A stretch of 50,464 nucleotides of DNA, from contig NZ_QEAS01000010.1 in NCBI RefSeq assembly GCF_003130405.1, forward strand, positions 206,484 through 256,947. The letters are read 5' to 3'. Of this stretch, positions 19,062 through 43,331 are shown in pieces. The stretch comes from Pararcticibacter amylolyticus (GTDB taxonomy: Bacteria; Bacteroidota; Bacteroidia; Sphingobacteriales; Sphingobacteriaceae). How positions within the stretch are numbered: the stretch's first letter is position 1; every line of letters starts with the position of its first letter. The position numbers and the translations under genes are program-made. The notes under the pieces are model-generated. The model saw only the letters and a list, made by a program, of their open reading frames with translations. It was not told where the DNA came from and did no database searches.

Positions 19062-21482
19062 ATGAAAATTTTTAAGCTTATTTTACAGGGTTTCCTCATT
19101 ATCCTGTTTCCGGCACATGTTCTTCACGCACAAACCAAACTTACATATCAAAAACCGCCTGCTGAAATTCTTGAGCTGCTGAATGCTCCTGCTACTCCCC
19201 TGGTCAGCATCAATGGCAAAGGCGATAAAATATTATTGCTTGAGCGTTCTGATTACCCTTCCATTGCACAAGTTGCCCAACCAATTTTAAGGATAGGAGG
19301 CTTAAGGATCAACCCGGCTACCAACGGATCTGCTAACAGCAGCGGATATACGAATATAAAAGTAAAAACGCTGAAAGATGGAAAAGAACTCCAGGTGAAG
19401 GGCTTGCCTTCAAATGCGCAAATAGGAAATATCACATGGAGTCCTGACGAATCTTGTATCGCATTTACCCAGGAAACAGAAAACTCCATTGAGTTATGGA
19501 TAATAGAGCTCAACACACTGACCGCGAAAAGACTAAGCAAAGAATCTTTAAATGATGCGTATGGAAATACCTTCAAATGGGCATCAGACAGCAAAAGCAT
19601 TGTGGCTCAGTTCGTTCCTTCCTCAAGGGGTGGAAAACCTGCAGAGAACACAGTACCTGAAGGTCCAGTAGTCCAGGAGAACTTAGGTAAAACTGCGGCA
19701 GCCAGGACCTATCAGGACCTTCTGAAGAATCCTTATGATGAAAAACTTTTTGACTACTATCTCACCGCTCAATTAAAACGAATTGATCTCCAGGGGAATG
19801 CTGCTAATATCAGTTCTCCCGCGATCTTCAGGAGGTTCGATTTTTCGCCTGACGGAACGTATATCCTGACACAAACCATCCAAAAGCCCTACTCTTACCT
19901 CGTGCCGGCATCAATGTTTCCTTACAGGATCAGCATTCTCGATGCAAACGGAACTCTGGTAAAAGATCTGTATGACGCGCCCCTGGCCGACAACAGGCCG
20001 AGGGGATTTGATGCAGTGGACAAAGGCCCGCGCGGACATTTCTGGCGTGCTGATCAAAATGCCACTTTATACTGGACTGAAGCACAGGATGAAGGAGATC
20101 CCAATAAGGATGCCCCTGTAAGGGATATTGTTTATACCCTTTCGGCCCCCTTTACGGCTGCACCTTCTGAACTGGCAAAATGCACCTATCGTTTCCAGGG
20201 TATAAACTGGGGAGCTGAAAATATTGCCATTATTAACGAGCGCTGGTGGAAAACCAGGAGAGAAAAAAAGACGCTGATCGATCCGGCAAAGCGGAGCGTG
20301 ATAAAAGTCATCGCGGACCGCTCTTATGAACAATCCTACACGGATCCGGGAGATTTCATTACAACAAAAAACGCTTCGAGGAGAACGGTCCTTCTGCTGG
20401 CAAAAGAAGGCAGCAATCCTGTAGCTTTTACCATTAGTACAGGCGCTTCACCACTTGGCGACCGCCCCTTCCTTCTTCGGTGGAACCTGGTGAGCGGCAA
20501 AGCCGATACACTGTTCCGCTCAAAAGCTCCTTACTATGAATTGCCGGTATATTTTAACAATACAGGGAATCTGATCATCAGCCGTGAATCTAAGGACGCC
20601 GCTCCGAATTATTTCTTAGTCAACCTTAAAAACCGGTCGGCAAAAGCCATAACTGCTTTTCCCGATCCCTATCCTTCCCTGGGAGGAGTACAGAAACAAC
20701 AACTCAAATATAAACGCGCAGATGGCATCGACCTGTCGGCCACCCTATACCTGCCTAAAGGATACAAGAAAGCGGATGGCCCTCTCCCGGTGCTCATGTG
20801 GGCATACCCGCGGGAGTTTAAAACAGTGGATGCAGCGTCGCAGGTAAAAGGTTCCCCCTACCGGTATACCAGAATAAGCTGGGGATCTCCTGTCTATTGG
20901 GTAACAAGAGGGTACGCGGTGCTGGATAATGCCGATATGCCGATCGTGGGAGAAGGCAAAAATGAACCCAATGATACATTTGTACAGCAGGTGCAGGCAA
21001 ACGCAAAAGCGGCAGTAGACTACCTGGTGAGCACAGGAGTAGCAGACAGGAACAGGATCGGGGTCGGCGGCCATTCCTATGGCGCCTTCATGACTGCCAA
21101 CCTCCTGGCCCACACCAATCTCTTTGCAGCCGGGATCGCCAGGAGCGGCGCATATAACCGTACACTCACGCCTTTCGGATTCCAGCAGGAAGAAAGGACC
21201 TACTGGCAGGCACCGGATGTTTACTTCAAAATGTCGCCCTTCAGTTATGCCGATAAGATCAAAACTCCGATCCTGCTGATCCACGGCGAGGCAGACGACA
21301 ATTCCGGCACGTTCCCGATCCAGTCTGAACGGCTTTACAATGCATTAAAAGGGCATGGCGCAACCACGAGACTTGTGTTTTTACCGAATGAAGCACATCA
21401 TTATTATGCAAAGGAGTCGGTAATGCATATGCTTTGGGAGATGGATGAGTGGCTGGAGAAGTATGTAAAGGGAAGGAAATGA
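19062..21482 (+). CDS. S9 family peptidase, glutamyl endopeptidase-like (S9D)
   Basis: 806 residues with a signal peptide ending near residue 24 (HVLHAQ). An N-terminal beta-propeller (about 40-560) caps a C-terminal alpha/beta-hydrolase domain. Catalytic triad visible: S672 in GGHSYGAFMTANLL, D745 in HGEADDNSGTFP, H779 in PNEAHHYY. The stretches ARSGAYNRTLTPFGFQ and MSPFSYADKI closely resemble plant chloroplast glutamyl endopeptidases, which supports subfamily S9D over DPP4 or POP. Probably periplasmic, cleaving peptides after Glu/Asp. It stands alone on the plus strand and ends at a strong palindromic terminator. Confidence 0.88.
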   Translation: MKIFKLILQGFLIILFPAHVLHAQTKLTYQKPPAEILELLNAPATPLVSINGKGDKILLLERSDYPSIAQVAQPILRIGGLRINPATNGSANSSGYTNIKVKTLKDGKELQVKGLPSNAQIGNITWSPDESCIAFTQETENSIELWIIELNTLTAKRLSKESLNDAYGNTFKWASDSKSIVAQFVPSSRGGKPAENTVPEGPVVQENLGKTAAARTYQDLLKNPYDEKLFDYYLTAQLKRIDLQGNAANISSPAIFRRFDFSPDGTYILTQTIQKPYSYLVPASMFPYRISILDANGTLVKDLYDAPLADNRPRGFDAVDKGPRGHFWRADQNATLYWTEAQDEGDPNKDAPVRDIVYTLSAPFTAAPSELAKCTYRFQGINWGAENIAIINERWWKTRREKKTLIDPAKRSVIKVIADRSYEQSYTDPGDFITTKNASRRTVLLLAKEGSNPVAFTISTGASPLGDRPFLLRWNLVSGKADTLFRSKAPYYELPVYFNNTGNLIISRESKDAAPNYFLVNLKNRSAKAITAFPDPYPSLGGVQKQQLKYKRADGIDLSATLYLPKGYKKADGPLPVLMWAYPREFKTVDAASQVKGSPYRYTRISWGSPVYWVTRGYAVLDNADMPIVGEGKNEPNDTFVQQVQANAKAAVDYLVSTGVADRNRIGVGGHSYGAFMTANLLAHTNLFAAGIARSGAYNRTLTPFGFQQEERTYWQAPDVYFKMSPFSYADKIKTPILLIHGEADDNSGTFPIQSERLYNALKGHGATTRLVFLPNEAHHYYAKESVMHMLWEMDEWLEKYVKGRK

Positions 21483-38021: not shown

Positions 38022-38204
38022 ACGACTTCTCCGAAAATAAAAGCACAGTCCCTATAACCAAAAAAGTTTATGTTAGTTTACCTTTAAATGACTGAAATCA
38101 CTCTTTTACCCCTTTCCCCCTCACAATAAAGGACATAGTTGTATTTTATTACATTCTTCCGACACAAAATGAACGATTAAACTTTTTTCAACTAAAATAA
38201 AAGA

Positions 38205-38212
38205 TATTTTTG
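38205..38212 (+). promoter_or_regulatory. Candidate -7 promoter element for the Ric cluster
   Basis: TATTTTTG matches the Bacteroidota TAnnTTTG consensus, 22 nt before the ATG of the Ric-like gene. A run of T near 38183-38188 lies at about the expected -33 distance but is not an exact TTTG. Confidence 0.5.
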
Positions 38213-38234
38213 TCTTCTATTAAACATATAAGCG

Positions 38235-39182
38235 ATGAGTACAAGTATATTAGACGTGACGATCCTGGAACCCCGCCTGAAGCACCCGACGATTTTTGAA
38301 AAATTTGACTCTCTTAACCCGGGGGAAGATTTTATTATTCATAATGACCATGACCCCAAACCTCTTTACTACCAGCTGCTCGCTGAAAGAGGACAAACAT
38401 TTGTATGGGAATACGTTGAAAACGGACCGGAATGGTGGAAGGTGAGAATAGGAAAACTGGCCGAAGGAGAGAAAGAAACCACAATCGGCGAACTGGTAGC
38501 AAAAGACTACAGAAAAGCGCAGGTATTTAAGAAATTCGGAATTGATTTCTGCTGCGGAGGAAAAAAAACACTCTCCGAAGTATGCAATAAGAAAGGAATC
38601 GACATCCACCGGGTGGAAGATGAGCTTAAAAATGTAGATCAGCAAAGCCAGAGGACAGGAGATAACTATCAAAACTGGGAGCTTGACTTCATGTGCGACT
38701 ATATCATAAACACTCATCACAATTATGTGAGAGAAAGCATTCCTTTCCTTAGTGAGATTTCTCAGAAAGTAGCGAGAGTGCACGGCGAACATCATCCTGA
38801 ATTGGTGAAAGTAGCAGAGGTCTTTGCAGGAATAGCGGCCGACCTGAGCATGCACCTGATGAAAGAAGAAAATATTCTCTTCCCCTATATAAAGGAAATG
38901 GTGCTGGCGAAAAAGACCGGCATGCCTCTTCCCCAGGCACAATTCGGACAGGTAGCCAACCCTATCACTGTGATGGAACAGGAACATGAGGGAGCCGGAG
39001 AAGATCTCAGCGAGATCCGTGAACTGACCAATAACTACGATGTACCTGCGGATGCCTGTACCTCTTACCGGATACTATTCAAAAAACTGGAAGAATTCGA
39101 AGATGACCTGCACCAGCACGTACACATGGAAAATAACATTCTCTTTCCGAAAGCGATAGAACTGGAAAAACAATTTAAATAA
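38235..39182 (+). CDS. ric: Ric/ScdA-like Fe-S repair di-iron protein with N-terminal DUF2249 domain
   Basis: 315 residues. Order: DUF2249 domain (about 15-73, with PLYYQLLAERGQTFVWEY), DUF542/ScdA-N domain (about 82-135, with FGIDFCCGGKKTLSEVC, Cys106-Cys107), hemerythrin domain (about 150-310) with H161/H162, H184/H186/H187, H207, E211, H251 and H295/H297 as candidate di-iron ligands. Ric proteins repair Fe-S clusters damaged by NO or oxidants. The standard Ric is about 220-240 residues; here DUF2249 is fused in front. First gene of a six-gene same-strand cluster. Confidence 0.92.
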   Translation: MSTSILDVTILEPRLKHPTIFEKFDSLNPGEDFIIHNDHDPKPLYYQLLAERGQTFVWEYVENGPEWWKVRIGKLAEGEKETTIGELVAKDYRKAQVFKKFGIDFCCGGKKTLSEVCNKKGIDIHRVEDELKNVDQQSQRTGDNYQNWELDFMCDYIINTHHNYVRESIPFLSEISQKVARVHGEHHPELVKVAEVFAGIAADLSMHLMKEENILFPYIKEMVLAKKTGMPLPQAQFGQVANPITVMEQEHEGAGEDLSEIRELTNNYDVPADACTSYRILFKKLEEFEDDLHQHVHMENNILFPKAIELEKQFK

Positions 39183-39203
39183 TCTCCCGGGGGCCTGAGT
39201 GAT

Positions 39204-40040
39204 ATGAAGCCTGAGAATTTGATTATCGGCAGAGACACCACTATCAAACAACTTCTTGAAGTAAATCAGGAAGCGGTGATCGAAGCACTCGTGAAACTGA
39301 ACAAGAACTTCAGTAAACTCAGGAACCCCTTTCTCCGGAAACTGCTTGCCAGGCGGGTGTCGGTTGCCGATGCCTGCAGGATAGCAAACTGCAGTATTTC
39401 CGACTTTTTTAAAGCTATGAATGCAATAGGTTTTCAACTTCTGGATAATGACCGGGACAACGGAAAACAGGATGCCGGGGCATTCGTACTTCCGGCGCCC
39501 GGGCTGATAGTGGATCTTGATGTCAGGCCAATTCTGGATGGCGGCAAAGACCCGCTAAAACTGATCATGCTGAAGATAAATGAACTTGCAGAGGGTGAAG
39601 TATTGAGGATCATAAATACATTTGAGCCTTTACCACTGATCAACCTCCTCGGCAATAAAGGATTCGGGGCTCATACTGAAAAGCCAGACCCTGGTGAGGT
39701 TCACACATATTTCTTTAAAAATGAGAATCCCCAGCCCGATCACACTCCAAAGACCACGCCTTCTGTTGAGCCGCCTGACACCTCTCTTCCCTCCTTCAAT
39801 GATCTGCTCCGGCAATACGAAGGGAGGCTGAAGGTAATCGATGTAACCATGTACGAAATGCCCAAGCCGATGATGACGATCCTGGAAAGCCTGGAAACGC
39901 TGGAGAACGGACAAGCCTTATTTGTCCATCATAAAAAGGTGCCTGTTTATCTGTTGCCACATCTGCACGACAAAGGTTTTAATTATCTGATACAGCAGGA
40001 GGAGGAAACAAAGGTCTCCCTTCTGATATACAGGAAATAA
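39204..40040 (+). CDS. DUF1858-DUF2249-DUF2249 protein
   Basis: 278 residues, no signal or membrane segment, so cytoplasmic. A DUF1858-like helical domain at 1-65 (TTIKQLLEVNQEAVIEALVK) is related to the ScdA-N type domain of the gene before. Two DUF2249 domains follow at about 105-180 (IVDLDVRPILDGGKDPL, ending GEVHTYFF) and 210-278 (VIDVTMYEMPKPMMTILESL). DUF2249 proteins resemble TusA-like folds but no catalytic Cys is visible in either copy. The gene starts 21 bp after the Ric-like stop and ends 3 bp before the membrane protein gene, so it is part of one operon. Confidence 0.85.
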   Translation: MKPENLIIGRDTTIKQLLEVNQEAVIEALVKLNKNFSKLRNPFLRKLLARRVSVADACRIANCSISDFFKAMNAIGFQLLDNDRDNGKQDAGAFVLPAPGLIVDLDVRPILDGGKDPLKLIMLKINELAEGEVLRIINTFEPLPLINLLGNKGFGAHTEKPDPGEVHTYFFKNENPQPDHTPKTTPSVEPPDTSLPSFNDLLRQYEGRLKVIDVTMYEMPKPMMTILESLETLENGQALFVHHKKVPVYLLPHLHDKGFNYLIQQEEETKVSLLIYRK

Positions 40041-40043
40041 GAT

Positions 40044-41324
40044 ATGAGCCGGTCTACCGAAAAATCATATGGCTTGGTAGTCAGCCACTATCTCCTTTCA
40101 GCAGTTTTTTTCCTTGCTATGGCAGTTATGCTGCTTTTTTCTGTGAGGGATCTGCAAGGGCATTATTTCCACCCAAAACTACTGGCAATAACCCATATGG
40201 CAGCTTTGGGATGGGGAACTCTCATCATATTCGGAGCAGCCTATCAGCTGATTCCCGTTGTCTTCGAAACAGAACTCAGTACTTACCGGCTTCCGTGGGT
40301 CAGCCTCATCCTCTTCATCAGCGGCCTGCCCCTCCTGGTATTTTCCTTCTGGAATTTTAATCCCGGGAGCCTGATGCAGACTGGAGGTGTCCTGCTGTTA
40401 CTATCAGTTATCCTGTTTTGCATAACAGTATTTCGCACAGCAAAAGACAACCCGAAGAAAGCAGGCATACAACAGAAGTTCATTATAACATCCTGCGTGT
40501 GGCTGATACTGACAGTGCTCCTGGGCGTTCTGCTGGTTTTCAACTTCAGACACCCTTTCCTGTCAAAAGATCATCTTCATTTTCTCAGGCTGCATGCCCA
40601 CATGGGCATAGGTGGCTGGTTCCTTCTTTTAATTATAGGGGTCAGTTCACGCCTGATCCCCATGTTTATAGTCTCCCGCGTTCAAAACACTAAGCCGCTT
40701 AGCCGAAGCTACTACCTGATCAACCTGTCGCTTGTCCTTTTTGTTATCGATACTTACTTTTTTGGGATAAACCATAAAACATGCCTGATCTTTTTAATCA
40801 TGCTCGCGGGCATTATCCTGTTCTTCATATATGTAGTTTCCTGCTTCCGGTCCAGGATCAAAAAGCAGATCGAACTGCCCCTTAGCAATACCATACTGTC
40901 TTTCGTCCTGATGGCATCGGCGGTGGCACTTCTTCCTCTGATCATTCACCGTCATTTAAAGGGAGATCCGTCTTCGGTTCATTTTACCACCTTGTATGGC
41001 TCCCTTTTGTTCATGGGATGGATAAGCGCACTCGTTCTTGGTCAGGCATTTAAAACATTTCCGTTTATAGTATGGACCAGAAAATATGAACAGCTTGCGG
41101 GCAAACAAAAGACACCGCTGCCCGCTGATCTGTATAAAAAGAACCTGTTGAAATGCCAGACGGCAGCGTTTATCCTCTTTTGCATTTCGTTCTTTACCGG
41201 CTTCGCCGTCAAATCGGAAACGCTGTTATTCGCCGGTTCCGGTTTCCTGATCATAACAGCAGCGGTGTATATCATCAATCTGATCATCGTCTTTTTCCAC
41301 CGGTCACAAACAATAACAACATGA
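40044..41324 (+). CDS. Polytopic membrane protein, heme-copper oxidase subunit I-like or NnrS-like (1)
   Basis: 426 residues with about 12 hydrophobic helices. Histidines sit within helices in patterned motifs: H15 (VVSHYLLSA), H51 (ITHMAALGWGT), H184/H186 (LHAHMGIGGW), H302/H304 and H313. The HAHxxxxGW motif followed by SRLIPMFI recalls heme-ligand helices of heme-copper oxidases and the NO-response protein NnrS. No CuB-type HH pair or proton-channel signature could be confirmed, so catalysis is unproven. Cluster context (Fe-S repair, Rrf2 regulator) suggests a role with NO or O2. Confidence 0.65.
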   Translation: MSRSTEKSYGLVVSHYLLSAVFFLAMAVMLLFSVRDLQGHYFHPKLLAITHMAALGWGTLIIFGAAYQLIPVVFETELSTYRLPWVSLILFISGLPLLVFSFWNFNPGSLMQTGGVLLLLSVILFCITVFRTAKDNPKKAGIQQKFIITSCVWLILTVLLGVLLVFNFRHPFLSKDHLHFLRLHAHMGIGGWFLLLIIGVSSRLIPMFIVSRVQNTKPLSRSYYLINLSLVLFVIDTYFFGINHKTCLIFLIMLAGIILFFIYVVSCFRSRIKKQIELPLSNTILSFVLMASAVALLPLIIHRHLKGDPSSVHFTTLYGSLLFMGWISALVLGQAFKTFPFIVWTRKYEQLAGKQKTPLPADLYKKNLLKCQTAAFILFCISFFTGFAVKSETLLFAGSGFLIITAAVYIINLIIVFFHRSQTITT

Positions 41325-41656
41325 ACAGCTTCAACATCACCGACAGCAGCACATTCACCAGGATGAATGTCATGGAAACTCTCCGGACAATTCCTGATCC
41401 GGAATTAAACGTCAATATTATTGACCTGGGGCTTGTATACAATGTAGAGGTGAAAGAACCCGAAAAGGAAATCATTATAACGATGACACTTTCTTCAAAG
41501 CATTGTCCCATGGGCGAAGCCATCCTGCAGTCAGTAAAGAACGGAGTGAAACATAATTTCGAAGATTTTTCTGTAGAAGTAAATCTCACATGGGAACCAC
41601 AGTGGGGCTATGACAACATTACGGAAGAGGGATTAAAACAGCTTAGAGGGCAATAG
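41321..41656 (+). CDS. MIP18/SufT-type (DUF59) Fe-S assembly protein
   Basis: 111 residues from the ATG at 41321, which overlaps the TGA of the gene before (ATGA), a clear coupling signal. Core of the family: TIPDPELNVNIIDLGLVYNV, then TLSSKHCPMGEAI with the conserved Cys in the TxxxCPM position, and a C-terminal LTWEPQWGYDNIT. PaaD/SufT relatives help mature Fe-S proteins. Finding it inside this operon links the cluster to metal-cofactor assembly. Its stop codon overlaps the GTG start of the next gene by one base. Confidence 0.9.
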   Translation: MNSFNITDSSTFTRMNVMETLRTIPDPELNVNIIDLGLVYNVEVKEPEKEIIITMTLSSKHCPMGEAILQSVKNGVKHNFEDFSVEVNLTWEPQWGYDNITEEGLKQLRGQ

Positions 41657-42870
41657 TGGTGAATGAAAAAAGGGCATATAGTATCTGGGCTGCAGGTGGA
41701 TTTTTACTGGTATCTTTCTTTGGAGTAATCCTGAGGTTGATGTTTGTCTGGCCGGTGCCGGGTGTCAACTATAGTTTCTTCCTGCACGCCCATTCCCATT
41801 TTGCATTTTCCGGCTGGATCTTTCTGGCTCTTAGTGTGCTGATCAGCTGCCAGATTCACGGCTCCATGCTCAGCGCGGGATTCAAAAAGATGTTTATGCT
41901 GACACTTATCAGCGCCTTCGGAATGCTGATAAGTTTCTCTGTTCAGGGGTATAAACTGATCTCTATCTCCTTCTCCACCCTCTTCATCTTTACCAATTTC
42001 TATTTTACATGGCTCGTTCTGCGGGACAAACAGTTTCATGCAGGGTTCACCCGTGACAGCTTAAAATTACTTAAAGCCTCCCTGTTCTTTTTATGTTTTT
42101 CCTGCCTCGGCCCCTTCGCACTTGCTCCGCTCATGAAAATGGGGTTGAAAGGATCAGTCCTTTATCAGGATGCCATCTATTTTTATCTCCACATGCAGAT
42201 GAACGGATGGATGCTGCTCGCGGCATTAGCTCTGATTGTCAACCGGTACAAGATAGAAGCGGGCAACAGGTCAGCCAGGCGCTGGTTGCAGATCTTTATC
42301 TGGAGCACTTTACCGCTATACCTCATTTTTACATTATGGGGTTCACAATCCGTCGTCATAAGAGGCATCGCCCTGGCAGCCACCCTATTGAATGTTTTTG
42401 GATGGTTTAGAATATTGATCTCCATAAGAAACAAAAAGCCTCAGCTGCCTGCATTCATTAAGATAGCCCTGATCGCAGTCTCCATAAAATGTGTCTTCCA
42501 GGTTGTGATATGCTTCCCTGCTATAGGCAATTGGGCATTTTCGCAAAGGAACCTGATCATCGGCTATATTCACCTGTTGATGCTGGGAGCTATCACCTCT
42601 GTGATACTGGACTCATTCACTTTCTCCGGCCTGTTTTCCGGGCCGGATATCCCTAGACTGAATCGTTCATTTGCTTCAGTCGTGATACTGTATGTTACGC
42701 TGCTGTTTCTACAGCCAGCCCTGTCTCTTATTTCGATAACGATCCCCTCCTATCAGGTTGTCCTTCTGGTAATTTCAGTTTTGTTCCTGCTTCTCAGTTG
42801 TCTTTATTTCAGAAATGCTTTAAGATCCAAAACAATACCAGGAATGAATAAAACCTTCAATGCTATTTAA
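41656..42870 (+). CDS. Polytopic membrane protein, heme-copper oxidase subunit I-like or NnrS-like (2)
   Basis: 404 residues with about 12 hydrophobic segments. The reading frame opens with GTG-GTG (41656 or 41659) and has no ATG for about 28 codons, so a GTG start coupled to the preceding stop is the best choice. Membrane histidines: H44/H46/H48 (FLHAHSHFAFSGW), H179 (YLHMQMNGWM), and the H of GYIHLLMLGAITS. It shares the LHAHxxxxxxGW-type motif with the first membrane protein of the cluster, so the two are probably distant paralogues or partners. Function is not established. Confidence 0.62.
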   Translation: MVNEKRAYSIWAAGGFLLVSFFGVILRLMFVWPVPGVNYSFFLHAHSHFAFSGWIFLALSVLISCQIHGSMLSAGFKKMFMLTLISAFGMLISFSVQGYKLISISFSTLFIFTNFYFTWLVLRDKQFHAGFTRDSLKLLKASLFFLCFSCLGPFALAPLMKMGLKGSVLYQDAIYFYLHMQMNGWMLLAALALIVNRYKIEAGNRSARRWLQIFIWSTLPLYLIFTLWGSQSVVIRGIALAATLLNVFGWFRILISIRNKKPQLPAFIKIALIAVSIKCVFQVVICFPAIGNWAFSQRNLIIGYIHLLMLGAITSVILDSFTFSGLFSGPDIPRLNRSFASVVILYVTLLFLQPALSLISITIPSYQVVLLVISVLFLLLSCLYFRNALRSKTIPGMNKTFNAI

Positions 42871-42882
42871 AATAAAAAATAC

Positions 42883-42890
42883 TACGTTTG
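42883..42890 (+). promoter_or_regulatory. Candidate -7 promoter element of the Rrf2 gene
   Basis: TACGTTTG fits TAnnTTTG and lies only 12 nt before the ATG at 42903, which predicts a very short leader of a few bases and separate expression of the regulator. Confidence 0.5.
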
Positions 42891-42902
42891 CAATTGAATA
42901 CG

Positions 42903-43331
42903 ATGATACTTTCAAAATCATGTGAATACGCGATACGTGCTGCCGTATACATCGGGCATAAAAGCCATGAAGGTGAAAGGGCAGGAATTCCTGAAATTGC
43001 GGAGGCAATAGGTTCCCCGATGCATTTTACCGGCAAGATCCTCCAGACCTTGTCGCGAAAAAAAGTGATCTCCTCTGCAAAAGGTCCGAACGGAGGTTTT
43101 TTTATTTTGGATCCGGCAACCTTGTACCTTATCGATATTGTAAGGGCAATTGACGGGAATGAATTATTCAGTTCCTGCGTAATGGGGTTAAAAAATTGCT
43201 CTGATACGAAGCCTTGTCCGATGCATGAACAAATCAAACCTATCCGCACGCAATTATTGATCGAATTCAGTAAAAAGTCTATCCAGGAACTTATACAGGA
43301 CTACGAACAAAAAAAATACTTCCTGAAATAA
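42903..43331 (+). CDS. Rrf2-family regulator with cysteine cluster (NsrR/IscR-like)
   Basis: 142 residues from the ATG at 42903; a TTG five codons upstream overlaps the promoter motif and is rejected. Winged helix at about 2-65 (SKSCEYAIRAAVYI, GIPEIAEAIGSPMHFTGKIL, GPNGGFFI). Three cysteines in the SSCVMGLKNCSDTKPCP segment (about 100-115) match the Fe-S ligand spacing of NsrR/IscR/RsrR-type proteins. It probably senses NO, O2 or Fe-S status and controls the cluster upstream. Confidence 0.9.
   Translation: MILSKSCEYAIRAAVYIGHKSHEGERAGIPEIAEAIGSPMHFTGKILQTLSRKKVISSAKGPNGGFFILDPATLYLIDIVRAIDGNELFSSCVMGLKNCSDTKPCPMHEQIKPIRTQLLIEFSKKSIQELIQDYEQKKYFLK

Follow-up and report, generated by a model that had tools for sequence, protein, structure and literature searches.

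An operon pairing iron-sulfur repair proteins with two predicted heme-copper-oxidase-fold membrane proteins in a probable nitric oxide regulon of Bacteroidota

In the catalytic subunits of heme-copper oxidases (HCOs), the histidine (His) of transmembrane helix 2 (TM2) and the second His of TM10 bind the low-spin heme, the first TM10 His binds the high-spin heme, and the His residues of TM6 and TM7 are the CuB ligands. The HCO-homology (HCOH) proteins that Pei and colleagues are said to have described in 2014, NnrS among them, reportedly share a three-repeat HCO-like architecture with few His residues, probably carry a single heme and occur in denitrification or nitric oxide (NO) contexts. Many carriers of clade II nosZ are Bacteroidota. 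The present analysis concerns a six-gene operon within a 50,464-nucleotide stretch of the Pararcticibacter amylolyticus genome (contig NZ_QEAS01000010.1, positions 206,484 to 256,947; hereafter the window), encoding iron-sulfur (Fe-S) repair proteins together with two membrane proteins, termed MemA and MemB. With a probability of roughly 0.6, it is read here as a unit of an NsrR-type NO-stress regulon in nos- and nor-carrying Bacteroidota, in which MemA and MemB would be degenerate HCO-like heme proteins working in an NnrS-like manner beside Fe-S repair. Their predicted fold, His set and NO context would fit the HCOH proteins, to which they may belong. HCO-like proteins in NO contexts are reportedly known already; the operon, the MemB family and the operator are apparently undescribed, no description having been found in the literature searched, and most subscription papers lay outside that search, so novelty is unproven.

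Among described systems, the NsrR regulon of Rodionov et al. 2005 (PMC1274295) is alike in its Rrf2-type regulator and in a single palindrome that controls dnrN/ytfE, hmp, nor and nos genes. The regulon considered here differs in operator sequence, in belonging to Bacteroidota, in including MemA and MemB, and in a regulator that falls under the NCBIfam NsrR equivalog cut-off (44 vs 182 bits). NnrS appears in PMC9246220 and PMC11526790 as a heme protein of NO regulons, reported not to remove NO but to guard the iron pool against dinitrosyl iron complexes; unlike NnrS, MemA stays under the cut-off of that family (PF05940; 9.4 bits against 28) and MemB is unmatched. DUF2249 proteins of denitrification clusters, namely DrpA/DrpB and haloarchaeal proteins induced under denitrification, are treated in PMC11218638, where the association of DUF2249 with HCOs is credited to Pei et al. 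2014. The domain keeps similar company here, but it is fused to DUF1858 or Ric and lies beside HCO-like proteins.

The six co-directional genes span 38235-43331, and the open reading frame (ORF) coordinates bear out the spacings given in a first-pass annotation of the same DNA. A 21-bp gap separates Ric from the DUF1858-DUF2249 gene and a 3-bp gap separates the latter from MemA, while MemA and the SufT-like gene overlap by 4 bp (ATGA) and the SufT-like gene and MemB by 1 bp (TAG/GTG). The Rrf2 start, ATG at 42903, was chosen by the analyst; the ORF list has TTG at 42888.

38127..38148, no strand: second copy of the predicted operator, 2 mismatches
38198..38219, no strand: predicted operator TAAAAGATATTTTTGTCTTCTA, 1 mismatch, 15 bp 5' of the Ric ATG
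38235..39182, + strand: Ric/YtfE/ScdA-type di-iron Fe-S repair protein with N-terminal DUF2249 (TIGR03652 and YtfE match)
39204..40040, + strand: DUF1858 - DUF2249 - second DUF2249/TusA-like protein, D1858 (domain search)
40044..41324, + strand: MemA, predicted 12-TM HCO-fold protein with conserved H51, H184, H186 and Y318 (model and alignment)
41321..41656, + strand: MIP18/SufT-like Fe-S assembly protein (domain search)
41656..42870, + strand: MemB, predicted 12-TM HCO-fold protein with conserved H46, H48, H179 and H306 (model and alignment)
42903..43331, + strand: Rrf2-family regulator, NsrR/IscR-like (PF02082 and Cys3-His set)

The placement of the operon in a regulon is drawn from a palindrome. 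Among 61 regions 5' of Ric, de novo enumeration of inverted repeats recovered TAAAAG-N10-CTTTTA in 28; when the letters were shuffled, three times over, the most frequent repeat reached 6, 6 and 7. The refined pattern, TAAAAGAYA-N4-TRTCTTTTA, was searched in upstream regions with up to 3 mismatches and lies 5' of 28 of 60 Ric genes (shuffled 0/60) vs 25 of 740 other genes (shuffled 5/740). It also precedes 5/17 qNOR, 4/8 NorC-like, 4/15 D1858, 9/46 nosZ-operon cytochrome, 7/30 Rrf2 and 3/24 HHE genes. The genome of the organism holds exactly three sites at no more than 1 mismatch, against 0 in the control, and they fall at the six-gene operon, at qNOR and at the nosZ operon. The qNOR site (C79:19047) lies upstream of the gene, with a second site at 19086, while the nosZ-operon site (C106:298709, 0 mismatches) lies just 5' of where the cytochrome c gene preceding nosZ probably starts, overlapping the longest ORF for that gene at its 5' end. 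Because Ric regions, the one in the window among them, contributed to the motif, the nosZ and qNOR sites serve as an independent test. Sites with 2 mismatches number five in this genome, two of them being second copies at qNOR and the six-gene operon.

Across a survey set of 60 genomes, this one included, 39 operator sites at no more than 1 mismatch occur in 19 genomes, compared with 9 for a reversed-pattern control. Of these, 28 lie at Ric, D1858 or another DUF2249 gene, nos, qNOR, nirK, Rrf2 or cbb3-like oxidase genes. One site is common to an Rrf2 gene and a divergent hmp gene (NO-inducible flavohemoprotein, NF009805, 529 bits), another precedes an Rrf2-truncated-globin pair and a further one an Rrf2-qNOR pair. 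The Rrf2 protein of the window scores 75.7 bits on PF02082 and carries the motif C-x6-C-x5-C-x2-H (C92, C99, C105, H108), whose Cys3-His set is kept in all 72 Rrf2-labelled sequences, giving it the Rrf2 domain and the three cysteines of an NsrR-type regulator. We infer that this protein binds the operator sites at nosZ, qNOR, Ric, nirK, hmp and Rrf2 genes, and it would likewise be the sensor of NO.

The genome itself (6.3 Mb, 97.7% complete) encodes a qNOR (E 4.8e-256 vs solved qNORs), a clade II NosZ (926.9 bits, cut-off 625) and a NorCB-like pair whose best solved matches are cNOR (1.3e-6) and CcoN (2e-5). Neither NirK (E up to 1e-20) nor NirS was found in it, and other nitrite reductases were not searched. 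The first-pass statement that norB, nosZ and nir are missing therefore describes the neighbourhood of the operon correctly and fails genome-wide for nor and nos. The search for NnrS matched 0 of 60 genomes; no control genome scored either, so absence is not shown.

The NorC/NorB-like pair is located at L058:5972-7819 (contig C137 of the same genome), and similar pairs stand near MemB in several loci. The His normally present on TM6 and the first His of TM10 are missing from its NorB-like protein (9/9 sequences, hand-anchored alignment), whose own sequence does show a pair of His on TM7; the protein may represent a divergent NOR-like family.

The neighbourhood is conserved, which was among the checks suggested at first pass. 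Counting full-length proteins, MemA occurs in 22 and MemB in 24 of the 60 genomes, with nosZ in 25 and qNOR in 15. D1858 lies directly 5' of MemA in 21/22 loci and a SufT-like gene directly 3' in 21/22, the single miss being the window itself, where SufT was mis-called by the ORF caller. The run containing MemA also holds Ric in 20/22 loci and Rrf2 in 16/22, while MemB is less bound to it (7/22 by script, 8 with the window counted). Either nosZ or qNOR is found in 21 of 22 genomes with MemA vs 10 of 38 without it (p 1e-7), and in 23 of 24 genomes with MemB vs 8 of 36 without it (p 6.8e-9); the p values are uncorrected for kinship and, the genomes being related, overstate the association. This co-occurrence, together with the operator common to the operon, qNOR and nosZ, lends support to the NO-related function that had been proposed.

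MemB relatives were confirmed in at least 431 stretches of the genome collection, the best named ones among the matches listed belonging to Desertivirga, a Sphingobacteriaceae metagenome-assembled genome, Pedobacter and Mucilaginibacter; a search of plasmids gave one match, annotated 'hypothetical protein'. In the best 80 of these stretches, a nosZ or NorB-labelled gene lies within 10 kb in 52 loci, in 59 when nosD/nosY are added and in 63 when NorB-like proteins are added, and Ric is present in 59. Gene labels in these loci are approximate, coming from BLAST against a small reference set, and some mark fragments at contig ends; in 5/80 loci the 'qNOR' label was given to a protein 443-447 aa long with ~28% identity, which may be a cNOR NorB.

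A Flavobacterium locus (L118:6032-11684) has the order Ric - NrdD - NrdG - MemB - Rrf2, which ties MemB to anaerobic ribonucleotide reduction. At L116:8938-10026, a 363-aa membrane protein with His-containing helices and no NCBIfam match at E<=0.001 stands between a qNOR-labelled gene and MemB. At L127:9971-16157, the genes after MemB encode a CopA-type ATPase and a fused cbb3 oxidase, and, judged by gene size, this order recurs in other Aequorivita loci.

Structure prediction, also among the suggested checks, assigns both membrane proteins a predicted HCO fold with Z of 31-34 to CcoN. AlphaFold2 models were built for MemB from 60 sequences (predicted local distance difference test score, pLDDT, 93.9; predicted template modelling score, pTM, 0.92) and for MemA from 12 (pLDDT 84.7, pTM 0.84), with structural alignment by VIA-align and searches by Foldseek. 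As in HCO catalytic subunits (CcoN, NorB/qNOR), 12 TM helices in three 4-helix repeats are counted in each model, and the structural match is full length. The MemB model aligns with CcoN (8smr_E) at Z 34.4 over 391 residues (3.4 Å, 11% identity) and with cNOR (4xyd) at Z 32.0, and the MemA model aligns with CcoN at Z 31.5 over 393 residues (3.4 Å). At E<=1e-3, Foldseek returned 23 matches for each model, every one an HCO subunit. In profile comparison, MemA matches CcoN at E 2.4e-7, with MemA residues 35-107 (TM2-3) placed on the presumed TM10-11 of CcoN, and the first repeat of MemB matches the second repeat of MemA at E 1.6e-6 (a single uncorrected comparison).

Family models place neither protein. 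The window MemA reaches 17.6 bits on COX1 (PF00115, cut-off 34.8) and the window MemB does not match it, nor any other Pfam or NCBIfam model at E<=1. Across families at E<=1, COX1 is matched by 13 of 21 MemA members (best 4.4e-14) and weakly by 3 of 60 MemB members (best 0.024), and DUF2871 is weakly matched by 8 of 60 MemB members (best 0.0012). The first-pass suggestion of likeness to heme-binding oxidases or NnrS proteins is upheld for the oxidase relationship of both proteins and not for the NnrS family, and the family-model searches recommended with it gave sub-threshold scores for MemA on both models and nothing for MemB. On the predicted models, MemA and MemB are HCO-fold membrane proteins. 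For a circular permutation of their repeats, scores against CcoN, qNOR and NorB-like profiles did not separate the three possible orders, and no claim is made.

The HAH-type motifs noticed at first pass are present in both proteins, as HAHMGIGGW in MemA (H184, H186) and HAHSHFAFSGW in MemB (H44, H46, H48). H51, H184 and H186 of MemA are kept in 22/22 sequences, H186 being Ser in 1/12 of another set. H46, H48, H179 and H306 of MemB are kept in 26/26 and H44 in 23/26; in the larger set, H179 is His in 59/60 and Tyr in 1/60. The ligand register was read, from hand-placed anchors, at motif positions 0 and +2 on TM2, TM6 and TM10. These positions hold H/N, Y/H and H/H in CcoN; H/H, Y or F/H and Y or F/H in MemB; and mostly I/H, H/H and Y/variable in MemA. 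A Pro at +22 backs the register in every MemA repeat (21/21 for each of the three) and in CcoN repeats 2 and 3 (11/11), but fails to do so in MemB and in CcoN repeat 1.

Like HCO catalytic subunits, MemB retains the low-spin pair of TM2 and TM10 (H46, H306) and the TM6 His (H179) at equivalent motif positions; unlike them, it has neither the high-spin ligand nor the TM7 pair. The high-spin position is Tyr or Phe in 60/60 MemB and Tyr in 21/21 MemA sequences, and neither protein has a conserved His in helix 7, judged from the alignments and model helix spans. MemA also departs from the HCOs in retaining none of their heme pair, with H51 and H184 instead. Neither protein thus carries the full HCO/NO reductase ligand set (low-spin pair, high-spin His and three CuB/FeB ligands), and since the high-spin ligand and the helix-7 CuB His are missing, MemA and MemB are not expected to work as ordinary oxidases or NO reductases. 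From these sequence positions, MemB probably holds one bis-His heme b at H46/H306, corresponding to the HCO low-spin site, and MemA probably holds one at H51/H184, in a pore possibly differing from that of HCOs. Given the three-fold repeat symmetry, H51/H184 would be an equivalent pair in another pore, and H186 would face Y318.

The remaining gene products are consistent with Fe-S repair or assembly. The Ric fusion scores 268 bits on TIGR03652 (cut-off 204.7), placing it in the Ric/YtfE/ScdA family, combines DUF2249, ScdA_N (PF04405) and hemerythrin HHE (PF01814) domains, and matches solved YtfE (5fnn) at E 8.1e-37. The SufT-like protein belongs to PF01883 and its C62 is kept in 30/30 sequences; it falls below the SufT cut-offs (TIGR03406, 80.6 vs 202.6 bits; TIGR02945, 79.2 vs 143.4 bits).

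Several results weigh against the reading of the operon as part of an NsrR-type regulon with HCO-like heme proteins. The MemB profile matches zero solved chains by sequence and its matches to HCO profiles are weak (best single-repeat E 0.0021), so its link to HCOs depends on the predicted fold together with MemA. The pore assignment comes from an alignment with hand-set anchors rather than from coordinates, with the permuted-repeat scores undecided. The operator stands 5' of MemB itself in just 4 of 57 regions (up to 3 mismatches), three of the five 2-mismatch sites in the genome lie at genes without evident link, and at up to 3 mismatches the same genome holds 47 sites vs 24 in the control. 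Among the 39 sites of the wider survey, 11 are unexplained, roughly the control level (one each in G002, G030 and G057, three in G007 and five in G038), the one in G030 being beside a U32 peptidase. Moreover, a second, Crp/Fnr-like palindrome, ATATGAT-N4-ATCATAT, is enriched at Ric (24/60, shuffled 3) and at the nosZ-operon cytochrome (25/46, shuffled 9), and the main NO regulator may therefore be a protein other than Rrf2; the two palindromes suggest dual control by Rrf2 and a Crp/Fnr regulator.

At L208:1501-2798, a U32 peptidase-family gene (PF01136) carries a 0-mismatch operator at its start, and at L141:9290-9886 a Crp/Fnr-family gene adjoins MemB.

Under the favoured NsrR-type regulon, the operon's own Fe-S Rrf2 protein would repress from TAAAAGAYA-N4-TRTCTTTTA until NO damages its cluster, whereupon the six-gene operon, qNOR and the nosZ operon would be derepressed together. 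Ric, the DUF1858/DUF2249 protein and the MIP18/SufT-like protein would repair or re-mature Fe-S proteins, while MemA and MemB would act in the membrane like NnrS, curbing NO damage to iron centres; alternatively within this proposal, they could form a quinol-linked heme relay for repair. An NnrS-like role would be the most economical for single-heme HCO-like proteins because of the NO regulon and the Fe-S repair partners. A more specific form is advanced only tentatively, as somewhat doubtful: MemA and MemB might constitute a membrane heme module that gives quinol electrons to, or an NO shield for, Ric/DUF2249/SufT repair in NO- or nitrous oxide (N2O)-reducing Bacteroidota, with a bis-His heme in the HCO low-spin pore of MemB and in an HCO-empty pore of MemA.

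The gene contexts can also be taken to mean that MemA and MemB help NosZ, NO reductase or cbb3 oxidase to mature or assemble, by inserting heme or metal or by stabilising the complex, rather than handling NO. Many MemB loci adjoin nos clusters, NorB genes or cbb3 clusters, and the pairing of MemA with SufT could mean maturation; yet MemA accompanies Ric at L093, L094 and L097 with no nos or nor gene labelled within 8 kb, MemB stands beside NrdD-NrdG in the Flavobacterium locus, and among 31 genomes with nosZ or qNOR, 10 are without MemA and 8 without MemB, so that neither is required, and this explanation is considered unlikely. That the two proteins are new NO- or O2-reducing enzymes with an unusual active site draws on the predicted HCO fold with its full-length match to CcoN and cNOR, and on a TM6 His in both (MemA H186, MemB H179), but the Tyr or Phe at every high-spin position and a helix 7 devoid of conserved His make it quite improbable. 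The stand-alone NO/O2 sensing or detoxification system envisaged at first pass accords with the window, in which no labelled nos or nor gene lies next to the operon; it is contradicted by the qNOR, nosZ and NorCB-like pair of the same genome and by the single predicted operator common to the operon, qNOR and nosZ, and little credence is left for it.

MemB relatives are widespread and often clustered with nosZ, nor and Ric, while the MemB of the window matches no family model. The predicted operator, regulon, fold and heme ligands make a role of MemA and MemB in NO tolerance and N2O respiration testable, and the finding bears on the reuse of the oxidase scaffold.

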